DNA of 64,000 nucleotides from Microbulbifer flavimaris (GTDB lineage: Bacteria; Pseudomonadota; Gammaproteobacteria; Pseudomonadales; Cellvibrionaceae), in contig NZ_LRFG02000004.1 of NCBI RefSeq assembly GCF_001641755.2, positions 186,001-250,000 on the forward strand. Direction: 5' to 3'. A program made the position numbers and the translations under genes. Position 1 is the first letter of the stretch. Each line of letters starts with the position of its first letter. The notes beneath the pieces are model-generated. The model searched no databases. It was not told the origin of the DNA and saw only the letters and a list, made by a program, of their open reading frames with translations. Positions 37,224-44,055 of the stretch are shown piece by piece.

Positions 37224-38687
37224 CTATTTTTTCAAATCGGCAAACGCTTCGATGGCTTTTTTCCGGGTCTCTTTAACATCGCAAATGGGCGGCGGGTAGC
37301 CCTCCATCGGTGGCGGGCAGTGCACCTCGTCGTCACTGAGTTTTTTCAGTTCCGGCAGATAGTGACGAATAAACTCACCGTGGCGATCAAACTTCTTCGA
37401 CTGACTGTAGGGGTTGAAGACGCGGAAATAAGGCACTGCATCAGTACCCGTCGATGCCGCCCACTGCCAGCCGCCGTTGTTGGAGGCGAAGTCCCCATCG
37501 ATCAGCTGGTTCATGAAATAGCGCTCGCCCCAGCGCCAGTCGATCAACAGGTTCTTGGTCAGGAACGAAGCCACCACCATGCGCAAGCGGTTGTGCATCC
37601 AGCCAGTCTTTTCCAGCTGACGCATCGCCGCATCGACGATGGGCACGCCAGTCTTGCCTTTGCACCAGCGACGAAACGCCAGCTCGTCGCTAGACCAGGG
37701 CACCGCCTCGGTTTCCGGCTTGAACGGCTTGTGTTTACAGATGCGGGGGTAGGCCACGATCAGGTGGGTGTAAAACTCCCGCCAGATAAGCTCGCCGAGC
37801 CAGCAGTCGATACCCTCGCTGCCGCCTTTCCAGCGACCGCGGTTACACTCCAGGGCCATATGTGCACACTGGCGTACAGAGAGTGCACCGGCATTCAAGT
37901 AGGGAGACAGTTTGGACGTGCCATCGATGGCCGGGAAATCCCGCTCGTCCTCGTAGGCGTCGACCTGCTCCTCGAATGCTTTCAACCGTTTCAGCGCGGC
38001 TTTCTCTCCCGGTTGCCAGCCCAGCAGCCGGCCGTTTTCCATGGGCACGGCACTGTACCCATCCACGGTATCGGGGATTGTCTGGCGCAGGTTTTCTTCC
38101 CCCTTGACCTGCAACCAGCTGGGCCATTCCTCCGTCTCCCGTTTGCGCGGAGCGGGCAGTGGGGAAAAGTCAGTACCGCCGCACTGCTCGATAAAAGCCC
38201 GTTTGAAAGGGGTAAAAACTTTATAGGCGTCACCACTGTTGGTCTTCACCGCCCCGGGAGAGACCAGGGTCCGGTCCGTGCTGAACTCGATCGGGATGTC
38301 GACTTCCTTCAAAGCCGCCCGCACGGCCTGGTCCCGCTCCTGTTCATTCACCGGGTACTCCGCGTTGGCAAAAACCGCACCCACCTCCAGCTTCTGCGCG
38401 ATCTGCGCCATGGCTTCCGGCACCTGATCAAAGCGTTTCAGCTCGAGGAAGTACAGCGGGATATTGCGATCTCCGAGGGCATCCTGCAGTTCGCGCAGAC
38501 AGGCGAGCCGAAAGGCGACCAGGTTGTCGCCCTCGTCGTGCCCCTGCCAGGTCTCCGGGCAGGCGATAAAGACACCCGCCACCGAGTGACAGGCCTGGAC
38601 AGCCCGGTGCAGCGCAGTATTGTCATGGATTCTGAGATCCGTGCGGAACCAGACCAGGCCGCGCGCATGTTCGAATCGGTCACTCAT
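37224..38687 (-). CDS. phrB: Deoxyribodipyrimidine photolyase (class I CPD photolyase)
   Basis: Light-driven repair of UV pyrimidine dimers. The 487-aa protein has the N-terminal antenna-binding domain (LVWFRTDLRIHDNTAL) and the FAD-binding helical domain with GELIWREFYTHLIVAYP, GVPIVDAAMRQLEKTGWMHN, SFLTKNLLIDWRWGERYF, NNGGWQWAASTGTDA and YFRVFNPYSQSKKFD, all hallmarks of class I photolyases. Its start codon overlaps the merR stop (ATGA), so it is translationally coupled as the third gene of a rudS-merR-phrB operon. The antenna chromophore is probably MTHF by family, not visible here. Confidence 0.95.
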   Translation of the reverse strand: MSDRFEHARGLVWFRTDLRIHDNTALHRAVQACHSVAGVFIACPETWQGHDEGDNLVAFRLACLRELQDALGDRNIPLYFLELKRFDQVPEAMAQIAQKLEVGAVFANAEYPVNEQERDQAVRAALKEVDIPIEFSTDRTLVSPGAVKTNSGDAYKVFTPFKRAFIEQCGGTDFSPLPAPRKRETEEWPSWLQVKGEENLRQTIPDTVDGYSAVPMENGRLLGWQPGEKAALKRLKAFEEQVDAYEDERDFPAIDGTSKLSPYLNAGALSVRQCAHMALECNRGRWKGGSEGIDCWLGELIWREFYTHLIVAYPRICKHKPFKPETEAVPWSSDELAFRRWCKGKTGVPIVDAAMRQLEKTGWMHNRLRMVVASFLTKNLLIDWRWGERYFMNQLIDGDFASNNGGWQWAASTGTDAVPYFRVFNPYSQSKKFDRHGEFIRHYLPELKKLSDDEVHCPPPMEGYPPPICDVKETRKKAIEAFADLKK

Positions 38688-39682
38688 GAAAATTGCTCCC
38701 GCAATTGCTGCAATGCTTCAGTGCAATTCGCCGACAACAACCGCATCCGCGCCCGCTCTGCCAGGCGGCACAGGTCCTGCTGCTGCAAGTCCACGAACCC
38801 ACCGGCAAACCACAGTGGCACCCTCAGCCCCTTGCGGGCCCGCTCTAGACCACTGCCGAGCGTCGCCATTGGCAGGGCGTGATGGCTATAGCAGAGCACG
38901 CCATCGATCCCCAGGGTTTTCTCCGCAATGGCCAGTTCGCCCAGCTCGGCCTCCGGCGCCAGGCCAATCACCTCGAAGCCGATATCTGTCAGGGCAGCCT
39001 CGAACAGCTGCGCAAACACTCCCTGCTCAGTGCCGGGGAAGGTCAGCAGTACCAGACGGCCCAGGACCGGGCCACGCTTGCGGTTGCGGCGGCCGGCGCG
39101 CAGGTTCACAGCCAGCAGCTCGCCCAGATGCCGCCAGAACAGAGCCCGGGCGATGCTGCTGCCGTAACGGCGCTGGCGGCTGAGCCTGCGCTGCAGCGGC
39201 GACAGCCATCGATCCAGCAGCAGCGGCAGCGGGTAGGCGGAGAGCAACTGCTCCAGGTGCCGGTCCAGCTCGGCCGGCACCAGGCGCCCTTCCAGGGCCA
39301 GGGTTTCAGCCACCAGCTGCGACCAGCTGTCCTCGACGGGGGTAGGCTCCAATCCGGCCGCATCCGCTGGGGGGGAATCTCCCCGGGATTGCTCCAGCAG
39401 CGGGCGCACCTTGCCGATGGCGACACCGCGGGCCAACCAGGCCTGGATATCACGAATCCGGGCCACATCGCTCTCGCTATAGAGGCGGTGGCCCTTCCCC
39501 GTGCGGCTGGGAACCAGCAGCCCATAGCGCCGCTCCCAGGCCCGCAGGGTCACCGGATTGACCCCGGTGCGCTGGGCCACTTCGCCGATCGCCAGATTCG
39601 ACTCTGTCAAAGGCTGCTCAGTCTCCCCTGACGGTTTCTCTCCCCGCGCTGCGGCCGGGGTGGGTACTTCTGCTTCAGACAC
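38684..39682 (-). CDS. MerR-family regulator with B12-binding-like C-domain (LitR type)
   Basis: A 332-aa regulator. A low-complexity N-tail (1-28) precedes a MerR winged helix: AIGEVAQRTGVNPVTLRAWE with RYGLLVPSRTGKGHRLYSE (about 30-75). The C-terminal part (about 105-325) has the helical bundle and Rossmann-like layout of cobalamin-binding light sensors (VLLTFPGTEQGVFAQLFEAA ... IGLAPEAELGELA). I do not see the E/D-x-H cobalamin-ligand motif, so it may be of the non-B12 class that works with a separate photosensor. The start is GTG with GAGG upstream. Likely binds the TGTACA sites at 40765-40834. Confidence 0.82.
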   Translation of the reverse strand: MSEAEVPTPAAARGEKPSGETEQPLTESNLAIGEVAQRTGVNPVTLRAWERRYGLLVPSRTGKGHRLYSESDVARIRDIQAWLARGVAIGKVRPLLEQSRGDSPPADAAGLEPTPVEDSWSQLVAETLALEGRLVPAELDRHLEQLLSAYPLPLLLDRWLSPLQRRLSRQRRYGSSIARALFWRHLGELLAVNLRAGRRNRKRGPVLGRLVLLTFPGTEQGVFAQLFEAALTDIGFEVIGLAPEAELGELAIAEKTLGIDGVLCYSHHALPMATLGSGLERARKGLRVPLWFAGGFVDLQQQDLCRLAERARMRLLSANCTEALQQLREQFS

Positions 39683-39780
39683 GTTTGCCTCAATCCGGTA
39701 TCAAGTTAACCGCCCTTTCATCGGGCGACTGTATTTAAAAGCGCTCGCGGTGCTCTCTTCGCGATTGCAAGCGCAACTGT

Positions 39781-40758
39781 TCAGTGAAAATCGCACAGCC
39801 CCATTTCCGCCGGCTCCGCTGCCAGTAACATCTGGCTGTGAATAAAGCTGTGGGGGGTACGGGGCAGGTAATGACGCAGCAGCGTCAGCACTGCCGAGGC
39901 CGGCTTGAGTCCACGGCGGTACTCGTCGATCAGCTGGGTCAGCTCCGCCTTTTCCTCCTTGCTGAGATATCCCTTGAGGTGCCCCTGGCTGTGCATCAGC
40001 GCGTTGGTCTTGTCCTTGCGGCTGGCCATATGGGTGAGGATATCCATCATGCGGGCGCGCACGTCCAGTGCCAGCTCCTCATGGTCCCGCCCCTTCGAGT
40101 TGGCCAGCACCCGCCCCAGTTCGCGGGTTTTGTCTTGGTGGTGCGCCAGCAACAGGTACTTGTAGGCAGTGAAGAACTCGATGATGTGCGCCGGGCTCGG
40201 CTCCTCCTGCACATAGCGGAACCAGGCATCGTAAGCGAATACCCGGGTCAGGAAGTTCTCACGGATCTCATTGCTGTTGAGGCGGCCCACCTCTTCCATC
40301 GGCAGGTCCGGGAAGCGCTCCCGCAGCCGCTGTGCGTAGACGCCCATGCCGTCATTGTCGTGGCCGTGCCCGTTGGGCAGGTAGCGCCGGATACCCTTGA
40401 GGCCGCAGCTGGGGGAGTTCTGCATAAAAATGTAGCCGCGCACCTGCTGCAACTGCGGGACCATGCTGTCCGCATAGTCCTTTAATGGCTGGGTGACATC
40501 GAGCGTCGGGTCGTCCACCCCGAGCACGCGAATTTCGGCATCAGCCGAGGTGTCGCTCTTCACCAGGCGAATGGGCTGACGTGGCACACCCATACCGATC
40601 GCCACTTCAGGGCACAGTGGCACATAGTCGAATACGCGCCCCAGCAACTGGGTGCAGATCTTGCTGTGCTTGTGTCCGCCGTTATAGCGCACTGCGTCCC
40701 CCATGGCGCACTGACTGATGGCCACGGGAATTTTTTCCGCCTGCAACTCGATTTTCAT
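39781..40758 (-). CDS. rudS: TudS (DUF523)-DUF1722 protein, RudS-like tRNA 4-thiouridine desulfidase
   Basis: A 325-aa two-domain protein. The N-terminal TudS/DUF523 domain (about 10-155) shows the three cysteines expected to hold a [4Fe-4S] cluster: VAISQCAMGDAVRYNGGHK, PLCPEVAIGMGVPRQP and QNSPSCGLKGIRR. The C-terminal DUF1722 domain (about 180-310: FFTAYKYLLLAHHQDKTREL) is the YbgA-type domain. As I recall, TudS-DUF1722 fusions (RudS) remove sulfur from 4-thiouridine in tRNA. ATG at 40758, ten bases after the last TGTACA site; a GTG just before it is in frame. First gene of the operon with merR and phrB. Confidence 0.82.
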   Translation of the reverse strand: MKIELQAEKIPVAISQCAMGDAVRYNGGHKHSKICTQLLGRVFDYVPLCPEVAIGMGVPRQPIRLVKSDTSADAEIRVLGVDDPTLDVTQPLKDYADSMVPQLQQVRGYIFMQNSPSCGLKGIRRYLPNGHGHDNDGMGVYAQRLRERFPDLPMEEVGRLNSNEIRENFLTRVFAYDAWFRYVQEEPSPAHIIEFFTAYKYLLLAHHQDKTRELGRVLANSKGRDHEELALDVRARMMDILTHMASRKDKTNALMHSQGHLKGYLSKEEKAELTQLIDEYRRGLKPASAVLTLLRHYLPRTPHSFIHSQMLLAAEPAEMGLCDFH

Positions 40759-40764
40759 CACACC

Positions 40765-40834
40765 TGTACACCTTTGAAGATTTGTACAAGTTATAACTCC
40801 TCACTCCACCCTGTACAAGTTTTATTTTTGTACA
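40765..40834 (-). promoter_or_regulatory. rudS-merR-phrB promoter with four TGTACA operators
   Basis: Minus-strand promoter: TTGTAC (-35, 40818-40813), a 17-base spacer, TATAAC (-10, 40795-40790). Four TGTACA palindromes lie at 40765-40770, 40783-40788, 40812-40817 and 40829-40834. They form two pairs (start-to-start 18 bp and 17 bp). One pair overlaps the -35 and the other the start point and ribosome site. Sites 2 and 3 share the longer TGTACAAGTT. The layout fits repression by the MerR-type protein of the operon; I recall a TGTACA-type consensus for LitR/PplR regulators but could not check it. Confidence 0.75.
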
Positions 40835-40983
40835 ATGCAGATACAGACGGATAACCCCACCCTAGACTCGGGGAGCGCCAGCCGCGATTTTTGTCCTGTT
40901 GCCGACAGTGACCCGGAAGGCCGCTTGCGCCACAGTGCGCCACCGCTAAAATGCCAGACCCCCTGAGAGCTACGGACATAGCC

Positions 40984-43900
40984 ATGATTCCAGCACTGCG
41001 TGAAGTCGATCCGGTTCAGGCCCTTTACCTGCAGTTCCTGCAGGCGTTGCGCGACGGCGGATTCCGCGGCGACCTGACTCCCAGCTATGCCAGTCGAACG
41101 GTGCTGGCCACCGACAACTCCATTTACCAGGTGTTGCCGCAGGCGGTGGTCTACCCGCGGGATACCCACGACCTCCAACTGCTGGGTGAGCTGGCAGACC
41201 GGGAGGAGTTCCAGCAGGTGGTGCTGTCCCCACGCGGCGGCGGAACCGGCACCAACGGCCAGTCTCTCACCGACGGGCTGGTGGTGGATATTTCCCGGCA
41301 CATGAACCGCATTCTCGAGATCAACGCCGAGGAGCGCTGGGTGCGGGTACAGGCCGGGGTGGTCAAGGACCAACTCAACGCGGCACTAAAGCCCCACGGG
41401 CTGTTCTTCGCTCCGGAGCTCTCCACCAGCAACCGGGCCACCATTGGCGGCATGATCAATACTGACGCCTCTGGCCAGGGTTCCTGTGTTTACGGCAAGA
41501 CCCGCGACCACGTACTGGAACTCGCCACCGTATTGCTCGGCGGCGAGCTGTGGCACTCCACCCCGCTGAGCGACAGTGAACTGGCAGAAGTCGCCGGGCA
41601 GGACGGCCGCGCCGGCCGCGTGCACCGGATCTGTGACGAGATCGCCCGGGACAAAGCCAAACTGATCGAGCAGCGCTTCCCCAAGCTCAACCGCTGCCTG
41701 ACCGGCTACGACCTGGCCCACCTGCGCGAGGGCGAGGGTGACGGAGAGCAGGCGCAATTCAACCTGAATAGCGTCCTCTGCGGCTCCGAGGGCACTCTGG
41801 GCTTTATTGCCGAAGCCAAGCTGAATGTGCTGCCGATCCCCAAGTGCGTGGCGCTGGTCAACCTCAAGTACGACAACTTTCAGGATGCCCTGCGCGACGC
41901 CAATGACCTGATGGAAGCCGGTCCCACGTCCATCGAAACCGTGGACAGCAAGGTATTGCAGCTGGCGATGGAGGACATCGTCTGGCACAGCGTGAGCGAG
42001 TTCTTCCCCGCAGACGACCGGCCGGTGCGCGGCATCAACCTGGTGGAGTACACGGCGGACTCGGAAGAGGCCCTGGAGGAGGCGCTGCAGCGCTTCACTG
42101 CGCTGATCGACAGCGTGATCGGCCACCCGGGCAAGAGCTTTGGCTACTCCATCGCCCGCGGGCACGGTGAGGTCAACCGCATCTGGGCCATGCGCAAACG
42201 GGCCGTGGGCCTGCTCGGCAATGCCGAGGGAGAGAAGCGCCCCATACCGTTCGTCGAAGACACCTGCGTGCCACCGGAACACCTGGCGGACTTTATCGCC
42301 GAGTTCCGCGGCGTACTGGATGAAGCCGGCCTGGCCTACGGTATGTTCGGCCACGTCGACGCGGGCGTATTGCACGTGCGCCCGGCCATCGACATGAAGG
42401 ATCCTGAACAGGCGGCCATGATCCGCCCCATTACCGATAAGGTGGTGGCGCTGACACAAAAATACAAAGGACTGCTGTGGGGCGAGCACGGCAAGGGTGT
42501 GCGCTCGGAGTACGCACCGGAATTCTTCGGCGAACTGTATCCGGAACTGCAGAAAGTCAAAGCGGCTTTTGACCCCCGCAACCAGCTCAACCCCGGCAAG
42601 ATTGCCACCCCCAGCCGCGCCTCCGGGCTGCTGAAAATCGACGAGGTCCCCACCCGCGGCGAGCAGGACCGACAGATTCCGGTACAGGTCTGGGACGGCT
42701 ACAGCGAGGGCGTGCACTGCAACGGCAATGGCGCCTGCTTCAACTGGGATCCGGACTCAGCCATGTGCCCCTCCTATAAGGCCACGCGGGAGCGGATACA
42801 CTCCCCCAAGGGCCGTGCCTCACTGATGCGCGAGTGGCTGCGCCTGCTCAGCGCGCGGGGCGTGGACGCGGTGGAAACCAGCCAGAAATTCCGCGAGCGC
42901 TCCTTCTTTGTGGGCTTGCCGGGGCGTATCAAGAATTCCCTGGCCAAAGCCCGTGGCGAGTACGATTTCAACCACGAAGTAAACGAGGCCATGCAGGGCT
43001 GCCTGGGCTGCAAATCCTGCGTTGGCCAGTGCCCCATCAAGGTGGACGTTCCGGAGTTTCGCGCCAAGTTCCTGGAGCTCTATTACAGCCGCTACCTGCG
43101 ACCGCTGAAGGACTATTTCGTCGGTGCGCTCGAATTCGTGATGCCGCACCTCTCGCGGGCGCCCCAGCTGTATAACTGGCCCTTGAAGTTCGCGCCGGTG
43201 CGCTGGCTGCTGGAGCGCGGCCTCGGTCTCGCCGATAGTCCCGACCTGTCGCGCAAGACCCTGCGCGATGAAATGGAAGAGCTGGGCGTACCCCTGGCCC
43301 GACCCGCATGCCTGGCAGCGCTGGGGCCGGAGCAGCGCAGCCGCGCAGTCATCATTGTGCAGGATGCGTTCACCAGTTATTTCGACGCCCAGGTGGTGGC
43401 AGATGCGTTGCGCCTGCTGAAACAGCTGGACTTTTACCCGCTGGTGGCGCCGTTTCGCGCCAACGGCAAACCCCTGCATGTGCACGGTTTCCTCGGCCCG
43501 TTCCGCCGCGTCGCCCAGTCCAACAGCGAAATGCTGCAGGAACTGTCCAGCAGCGGCATCCCGCTGGTGGGAATCGATCCCTCCATGACGCTCACCTACC
43601 GCTCGGAGTACCGCAAGGTGCTCGGTGAGGGAGCTCCCTCCGTACAATTGCTACAGGAGTGGCTGGCAAGCCAGCGGGAGCACCTGGAGCGGCAGCAGCC
43701 GCGACTCCGGGCCGGCAGCTTCCGCCTGCTGCCCCATTGCAGCGAACAGACGAACGCCGCCGCTTCCCTGAAGGATTGGCGCGCGATCTTCGAGGCGCTG
43801 GGGCTGGAACTGCACACCGAAGCGCTCGGCTGTTGCGGCATGGCTGGCACCTATGGTCACGAAACCGCCAACAAAGAGACCTCCCGCACCATCTTCCAGC

Positions 43901-44055
43901 AGTCCTGGGCGCCGCGTCTTAACGGCGACAACCAGTCAACCCTGGCCAGTGGCTACTCGTGCCGCTGCCAGAGTAAGCGCTTCGCGGGTGTGACCCTGCG
44001 CCATCCGCTGCAGGGATTGCTGGCACAAATGTCCGATTCGCGGTTTACTGAGTGA
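40984..44055 (+). CDS. FAD- and Fe-S-containing dehydrogenase, YdiJ type
   Basis: A 1023-aa D-2-hydroxyacid dehydrogenase-like enzyme. N-terminal FAD-binding domain of the PCMH/VAO fold (SPRGGGTGTNGQSL at 82-95), FAD-oxidase C domain (about 300-560, ending NPGKIATPSR), then a ferredoxin-like region with GCLGCKSCVGQCPIKVD (near 670) and an earlier CNGNGACFNW, and a CCG domain (LGCCGMAGTYGHE near 945). E. coli YdiJ has been described as a D-2-hydroxyglutarate dehydrogenase (recalled). Start at 40984 with GGA at seven bases. It is divergent from the rudS operon and its promoter may share the TGTACA region. Confidence 0.85.
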   Translation: MIPALREVDPVQALYLQFLQALRDGGFRGDLTPSYASRTVLATDNSIYQVLPQAVVYPRDTHDLQLLGELADREEFQQVVLSPRGGGTGTNGQSLTDGLVVDISRHMNRILEINAEERWVRVQAGVVKDQLNAALKPHGLFFAPELSTSNRATIGGMINTDASGQGSCVYGKTRDHVLELATVLLGGELWHSTPLSDSELAEVAGQDGRAGRVHRICDEIARDKAKLIEQRFPKLNRCLTGYDLAHLREGEGDGEQAQFNLNSVLCGSEGTLGFIAEAKLNVLPIPKCVALVNLKYDNFQDALRDANDLMEAGPTSIETVDSKVLQLAMEDIVWHSVSEFFPADDRPVRGINLVEYTADSEEALEEALQRFTALIDSVIGHPGKSFGYSIARGHGEVNRIWAMRKRAVGLLGNAEGEKRPIPFVEDTCVPPEHLADFIAEFRGVLDEAGLAYGMFGHVDAGVLHVRPAIDMKDPEQAAMIRPITDKVVALTQKYKGLLWGEHGKGVRSEYAPEFFGELYPELQKVKAAFDPRNQLNPGKIATPSRASGLLKIDEVPTRGEQDRQIPVQVWDGYSEGVHCNGNGACFNWDPDSAMCPSYKATRERIHSPKGRASLMREWLRLLSARGVDAVETSQKFRERSFFVGLPGRIKNSLAKARGEYDFNHEVNEAMQGCLGCKSCVGQCPIKVDVPEFRAKFLELYYSRYLRPLKDYFVGALEFVMPHLSRAPQLYNWPLKFAPVRWLLERGLGLADSPDLSRKTLRDEMEELGVPLARPACLAALGPEQRSRAVIIVQDAFTSYFDAQVVADALRLLKQLDFYPLVAPFRANGKPLHVHGFLGPFRRVAQSNSEMLQELSSSGIPLVGIDPSMTLTYRSEYRKVLGEGAPSVQLLQEWLASQREHLERQQPRLRAGSFRLLPHCSEQTNAAASLKDWRAIFEALGLELHTEALGCCGMAGTYGHETANKETSRTIFQQSWAPRLNGDNQSTLASGYSCRCQSKRFAGVTLRHPLQGLLAQMSDSRFTE

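Follow-up and report, generated by a model that had tools for sequence, protein, structure and literature searches.

In Pseudomonas, RudS, LitR and PhrB are encoded in a single light-controlled operon (PMC11417400). In P. mendocina, the motif TGTACA-N12-TGTACA is found twice at the promoter P6650 of the pmlR1-phrB region: the first copy overlies the -35 element, and the second falls after the start site and before the start codon. PmlR2 binds this motif, protects positions -54 to +37 and represses P6650, and a short LOV protein lifts the repression in blue light (PMC9758184). The same paper cites T(G/A)TACA-N12-TGTA(C/T)A as the consensus for PplR1 of P. putida. Class II LitR is termed B12-dependent in PMC11417400, while P. 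putida is reported in PMC9758184 not to require B12. Our subject is a rudS-litR-phrB operon, together with the TGTACA palindromes at its promoter, in a stretch of 64,000 nucleotides from Microbulbifer flavimaris (contig NZ_LRFG02000004.1, positions 186,001 to 250,000). This whole stretch is the window, all coordinates are positions in it, and the operon lies on its minus strand. We put at roughly three in four the probability that the LitR-like regulator represses its own operon through two TGTACA pairs on the sigma-70 promoter, with release by light or by its photochemical products.

Four exact TGTACA sites are found within 70 bp upstream of rudS (40765-40770, 40783-40788, 40812-40817 and 40829-40834), as a first, sequence-only reading of this DNA had described. 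They repeat at intervals of 18 and 17 bp, corresponding to gaps of N12 and N11, and the centres of the two pairs are 46.5 bp apart. The cluster is far above chance: the window holds 12 TGTACA compared to a mean of 5.3 in shuffles, and 100 Markov resamplings of its sequence reached at most two in any 70 bp. Both pairs agree with the class II LitR operator T(G/A)TACA-N12-TGTA(C/T)A in their exact halves, one of them with the N12 gap and the other with N11. The same reading had placed one pair over the -35 element and the other at the start region of a promoter, and the arrangement bears this out:

40812..40834, minus strand: outer operator pair, TGTACA-N11-TGTACA with exact halves, the downstream half-site forming the -35
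40813..40818, minus strand: predicted -35 hexamer TTGTAC, based on sequence and on conservation of TTGTA[CT]-N17-TATAA in the genus
40790..40795, minus strand: predicted -10 hexamer TATAAC, between the operator pairs and 17 bp from the -35
40765..40788, minus strand: inner operator pair, TGTACA-N12-TGTACA with exact halves, over the predicted start-site region and 6 bp before the ATG

A generic sigma-70 scan called no promoter in 39600-41050; it asks for four of six matches in the -35 and for a final T in the -10, a rule that this promoter misses. The names originally given to the three downstream products hold against profile matches:

39781..40758, minus strand: rudS, a TudS desulfidase fused to DUF1722 (PF04463, 2.1e-36; PF08349, 1.2e-31)
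38684..39682, minus strand: litR-like gene for a MerR repressor (PF13411, 2.3e-19, residues 32-98)
37224..38687, minus strand: phrB, deoxyribodipyrimidine photolyase (NF007955 equivalog, above cut-off)

The first protein combines the two domains of RudS, whose role, going by the name, would be the removal of 4-thiouridine from tRNA; an alternative GTG start lies at 40761. The second has the MerR-type N-terminal DNA-binding head of class II LitR, and its CarH matches span this head only. Its single-sequence AlphaFold model has a mean predicted local distance difference test score of 40.6 and was not used for fold searches. The window genome contains one litR copy at E 1e-10 or better. Coupling of the genes by overlap applies to litR and phrB, which share 4 bp (38684-38687), but not to rudS and litR, which are separated by a gap of 98 bp (39683-39780).

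The pairing of operator and regulator extends well beyond the window. In 390 genomes of the order, searched at a litR-homologue threshold of E 1e-20, at least 97 carry litR homologues (a lower bound, with up to five candidates scored per genome). All 116 listed litR places besides the window's own were taken as stretches, some of which overlap when they come from one genome; 114 of them lie outside the genus, 50 with rudS and litR adjacent on the same strand and 64 others. Within 200 bp upstream of rudS, 45 of these 50 adjacent loci have a TGTACA pair with at most one mismatch, compared to none of the 50 for the backward motif used as control, and 17 have two pairs. In 31 of the other 64 stretches a pair lies no more than 350 bp upstream of the litR gene. 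An exact pair occurs in 51 of the 116 relatives' stretches and a relaxed pair in 82. Gaps of N12 dominate in the 116 stretches plus the window (N12 54, N13 10, N11 6, N10 4, overlapping stretches being counted twice), and for the backward motif the same 117 stretches yielded a single pair over all gaps of 60 or less; extra heaps of gaps at 25-27 and 43-45 are the reflection of paired pairs. The centres of double pairs are 43-51.5 bp apart in the 17 order loci (14 of them at 49-51.5) and 48-49.5 bp apart in 10 genus relatives, compared to the 46.5 of the window. This range is narrow though not fixed, and helix-phased cooperative binding was considered as a candidate explanation only.

Within the genus of the window, the presence and absence of litR provide a natural experiment. 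The sample comprises 48 genomes, with rudS in 47 and litR in 20; in the remaining 27 rudS is kept and litR is absent, and the region upstream of rudS was read in all 47. An outer pair (at most two mismatches, at -73 to -77) is present in 20/20 genomes with litR and in 2/27 without it, and the promoter TTGTA[CT]-N17-TATAA shows the same distribution (20/20 versus 2/27). The expectation of the sequence-only reading that the pairs would be conserved in relatives is borne out for relatives with litR, in genus and order alike. A second, inner pair (at most one mismatch, at -26 to -28) accompanies the outer one in 11 of the 20, and nine have the outer pair alone. In both exceptions without litR (L189 and L190) the ends of litR flank a deletion while outer operator and promoter are retained; in these two the gene was lost. 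In another genome (L183) perhaps some 25 bp of the litR 3' end are left between rudS and phrB.

Compared to P6650 and PmlR2, the locus shares two pairs on a sigma-70 promoter, a MerR repressor of the LitR/CarH family and a photolyase gene, the latter located in the pmlR1 region in P. mendocina. It differs by the N11 gap of one pair and by the inner pair lying 6 bp from the ATG, and the window genome has one litR instead of two and no short LOV that we could find. The PplR1 regulon is similar in its operator consensus and in the control of a photolyase by a class II LitR; in contrast, P. putida uses three PplR proteins plus LOV proteins, and consensus pairs with gaps of 10-13 occur in the window genome only at rudS and before a yebG-like reading frame. 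PmlR2 and PplR1 are likened to the window protein here by operator and family. The Pseudomonas operon likewise unites RudS, LitR and PhrB, but the B12-ligand histidine is missing in the window LitR. The view of the duplicated operator as exceptionally elaborate is not supported, given two sites at P6650, two pairs at a good part of the order loci (the 17 above) and a lone outer pair in those nine genus genomes. The double-operator architecture is already known; what is new is the comparative evidence from genus and order.

A search with a litR-linked short-LOV gene from the order (L062) found no match in the window genome at E 0.1 and no short LOV in any of the 48 genus genomes; the seven weak matches that it gave there, at 22-28% identity and in frames 540-564 aa long, were restricted to genomes without litR. 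A genome-encoded short LOV, the anti-repressor of one described form of class II LitR, was thus not seen here. At E 3e-45 or better the same query matched 45 genomes of the 390 in the order, and litR is present in 43 of the 45 (Fisher p 1.3e-27, uncorrected for kinship), and 54 of the 97 order genomes with litR have no match that strong. Short LOV frames occur in 25 of the 117 stretches around litR, some of them overlapping (e.g. L062, L077 and L084). Three PAS_9 matches in the window genome were rejected as LOV candidates, being histidine-kinase-like by eye and devoid of an NCRFLQ-type motif.

Cobalamin offers no obvious sensor either. The C-terminal region of the genus LitR proteins aligns with two order proteins that bear the E-x-H motif, L098 and L137 (hhalign probability 98.1, 211 columns), which we take to be class I. 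With CarH and class I LitR the window protein shares the MerR head and this alignable region, but it lacks the E-x-H motif for B12: PGTEQG replaces the PGEYHEFG-type sequence, and at least 19 of the 20 genus proteins have glutamine where the B12-ligand histidine would stand. At least 19 also keep a Ser-His pair (272-273, trimmed numbering). A Pfam B12 model gave no listed match on LitR at E up to 10, in a search whose HMMER filters drop most weak matches. A CarH-related C-terminal region minus the B12 motif is the pattern of class II LitR.

In the mechanism we favour, the LitR-like MerR protein would bind the TGTACA pairs as dimers or as a higher oligomer. Once bound, it would shut off its own operon, rudS-litR-phrB, at the sigma-70 promoter, with the outer pair acting on the -35 and the inner pair on the start region. 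The repressor would then be taken off by a signal, for which blue light or the products of its photochemistry are the likeliest candidates, and the putative tRNA 4-thiouridine remover and the photolyase would be produced together. The genome comparisons show that operator sites, promoter and regulator are retained jointly and that, where one is absent, the others tend to be absent too, which supports a link between the LitR-like regulator and the TGTACA pairs. That the protein binds them directly, represses in the dark and lets go in the light we infer from characterised relatives. Repression of the rudS operon by the LitR-like regulator is very likely on these grounds, and relief by light is plausible but unproven, since light control is documented for relatives with a short LOV and none was found in the genus.

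Several observations weigh against this account and have to be set beside it. A tree of YdiJ, the product of the gene divergent from rudS, was built with 46 rows (L178, whose stretch is without YdiJ, was left out, and the YdiJ of L184 is partial).

40984..44055, plus strand: ydiJ (D-2-hydroxyglutarate dehydrogenase), divergent neighbour of the operon (NF049975, 1596.8 bits; alternative ATG at 40951)

The tree splits the genus into 20 genomes without litR and a group of 26 that contains the 20 with litR, and the litR label takes only four changes on it, so that few independent events underlie the genus counts, which do not amount to 47 separate trials. An independent-pairs test of litR against operator gave two pairs for, none against and one tie (p 0.5), which is not significant because the test is too small. 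One genome without litR (L194) has a pair with two mismatches elsewhere, at -42, and no pair is seen at 5 of the 50 adjacent loci of the order. Finally, the light step lacks an identified sensor, because the genus has no short LOV and the B12 histidine is replaced by glutamine.

Where litR is absent, a different promoter motif stands before rudS in part of the genus. RpoE-ChrR-type promoters of the form TGATCC-N16-CGTA, including that of phrB, are described for P. syringae (PSPTO_1043; PMC5507510) and Shewanella (rpoE2; PMC4336711). We searched the 150 bp upstream of rudS for T[GC]ATCC-N16-CGTA with at most one mismatch, and scored ChrR as present where TIGR02451 matched above its family cut-off. 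We take these published systems to be of the ECF11 group of extracytoplasmic function (ECF) sigma factors. The motif precedes rudS in 13 of the 21 genomes that have ChrR and no litR, in none of the six with neither and in none of the 20 with litR; at the same criterion 7 of 1880 shuffled upstream regions matched.

Upstream of rudS in genus genomes without litR: T[GC]ATCC-N16-CGTA in L168-L171, L176, L177, L195, L196 and L199-L201, and with one mismatch in L173 and L197

The likeness to the ECF11 RpoE-ChrR regulon lies in these 13 of 27 genomes; the window's own rudS promoter differs, its best match to the motif having four mismatches. On both strands of the 47 stretches (1.02 Mb) we count 11 copies of the form TCATCC-N16-CGTA, compared to about one expected and four matches anywhere for the backward control. 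All 11 lie upstream of rudS in genomes without litR: one at -222, the other ten no further than 90 bp away. ChrR itself is found in 41 of the 48 genus genomes, that of the window included, and the exact motif stands somewhere in 24 of the 30 best chrR loci (3.6-3.7 kb each), compared to 0.4 expected and no control matches. A sigma-factor gene beside chrR was seen by eye in the locus of the window genome, the sole locus viewed. Two results count against ECF control: eight of the 21 genomes with ChrR and no litR are without the motif at one mismatch or fewer (three of them have it within two), and six of the 30 chrR loci, that of the window genome and five others, are without an exact motif. One genome (G406, L172) has neither a ChrR match nor a motif at rudS within two mismatches, and its sister L173 keeps the motif at one mismatch or fewer.

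The motif at 13 of the 27 rudS loci without litR, and at the chrR loci, suggests that the operon has passed from LitR to ChrR/ECF control, and in these 13 genomes it appears to be under a ChrR-controlled ECF sigma factor. All 13 fall in the litR-less clade of 20 genomes on the YdiJ tree, and the change seems to be essentially one deep switch. An independent-pairs test of litR against the motif gives no support (none the same way, a mean of 0.2 of 3 the opposite way, p 1), because the motif is almost confined to one deep clade. In the titles and visible abstract openings of the open full-text literature we found no description of such a swap from LitR to a stress sigma factor. In the Shewanella SO_3386 promoter, the ECF spacer includes TTGTACAAG, a TGTACA half-site, and may reflect dual control (PMC4336711).

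The absence of a short LOV and of the B12 histidine bears directly on what the repressor senses. The regulator might answer a chemical photo-oxidative signal (singlet oxygen, peroxide or a ligand of the C-terminal region), with light acting indirectly, and the glutamine and the missing short LOV fit this. So does the ChrR/ECF11-type promoter of those 13 of 27 species, which elsewhere belongs to an oxidative-stress pathway (PMC5507510 and PMC4336711), as does the blue-light response of Vibrio cholerae, which requires a MerR-like protein plus ChrR (PMC5241685). However, the class II LitR targets of P. putida and P. mendocina are light-controlled (PMC9758184), and other photoreceptors could serve, namely BLUF or phytochrome proteins, a cryptochrome-like protein at L012 or PhrB itself; we regard a purely chemical signal as a possibility, though the less probable outcome. 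Such another photoreceptor (a BLUF protein, a cryptochrome or a photolyase) could equally replace the short LOV as anti-repressor. BluF and BluR are a known pair of photoreceptor and MerR protein (PMC9758184), and the window genome has elsewhere a second gene of the photolyase/cryptochrome family (437 aa, labelled DASH by eye). But no tie between photoreceptors of this kind and the rudS operon was seen, no search aimed at BLUF proteins or phytochromes having been made, and a replacement of this sort is a tentative proposal that we would not bet on.

A different objection concerns the operators, since the pairs sit in the intergenic region common to ydiJ and rudS and might serve ydiJ or some regulator other than LitR. 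In sharp contrast to this scenario, 26 of the 27 genomes without litR (and 46 of all 47 genus stretches, the exception being L178) have ydiJ no more than 500 bp from rudS, and just 2 of the 27 have the outer pair. Outside the genus none of the 114 stretches has a ydiJ match, and the pairs nonetheless stand before rudS in those 45 of 50 loci. Because ydiJ persists where litR and the operators are absent, we do not take it as a target, and this explanation is very improbable.

The greatest interest of the locus lies beyond the original finding, in a LOV-less and B12-less LitR and in a switch from repressor to sigma factor within one genus. The chances seem to us evenly balanced that such a LitR runs the operon in one half of the genus by some light or photo-oxidation input, while 13 of the 20 members of the litR-less clade, with the operon behind a ChrR-type ECF promoter, represent a naturally occurring change of control, with activation under stress in place of repression in the dark, and two further members of the lineage hold a fossil litR. 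Because the genus has a LitR minus the known light sensor, a single protein and a single promoter suffice to test how LitR proteins sense light. Sister species illustrate how control of a photolyase/tRNA operon can shift to an oxidative-stress sigma factor in place of a light-type repressor.

A scan of the whole window genome with TRTACA-N10-13-TGTAYA matched three places, the two pairs at rudS and one before the yebG-like frame. This third pair (C1:542911-542935, L002; TGTACA-N13-TGTACA) was rejected as a second target, as it overlaps a CTG-N10-CAG box, presumably of the LexA type, before a frame that we assume to be yebG. It is an operator look-alike.

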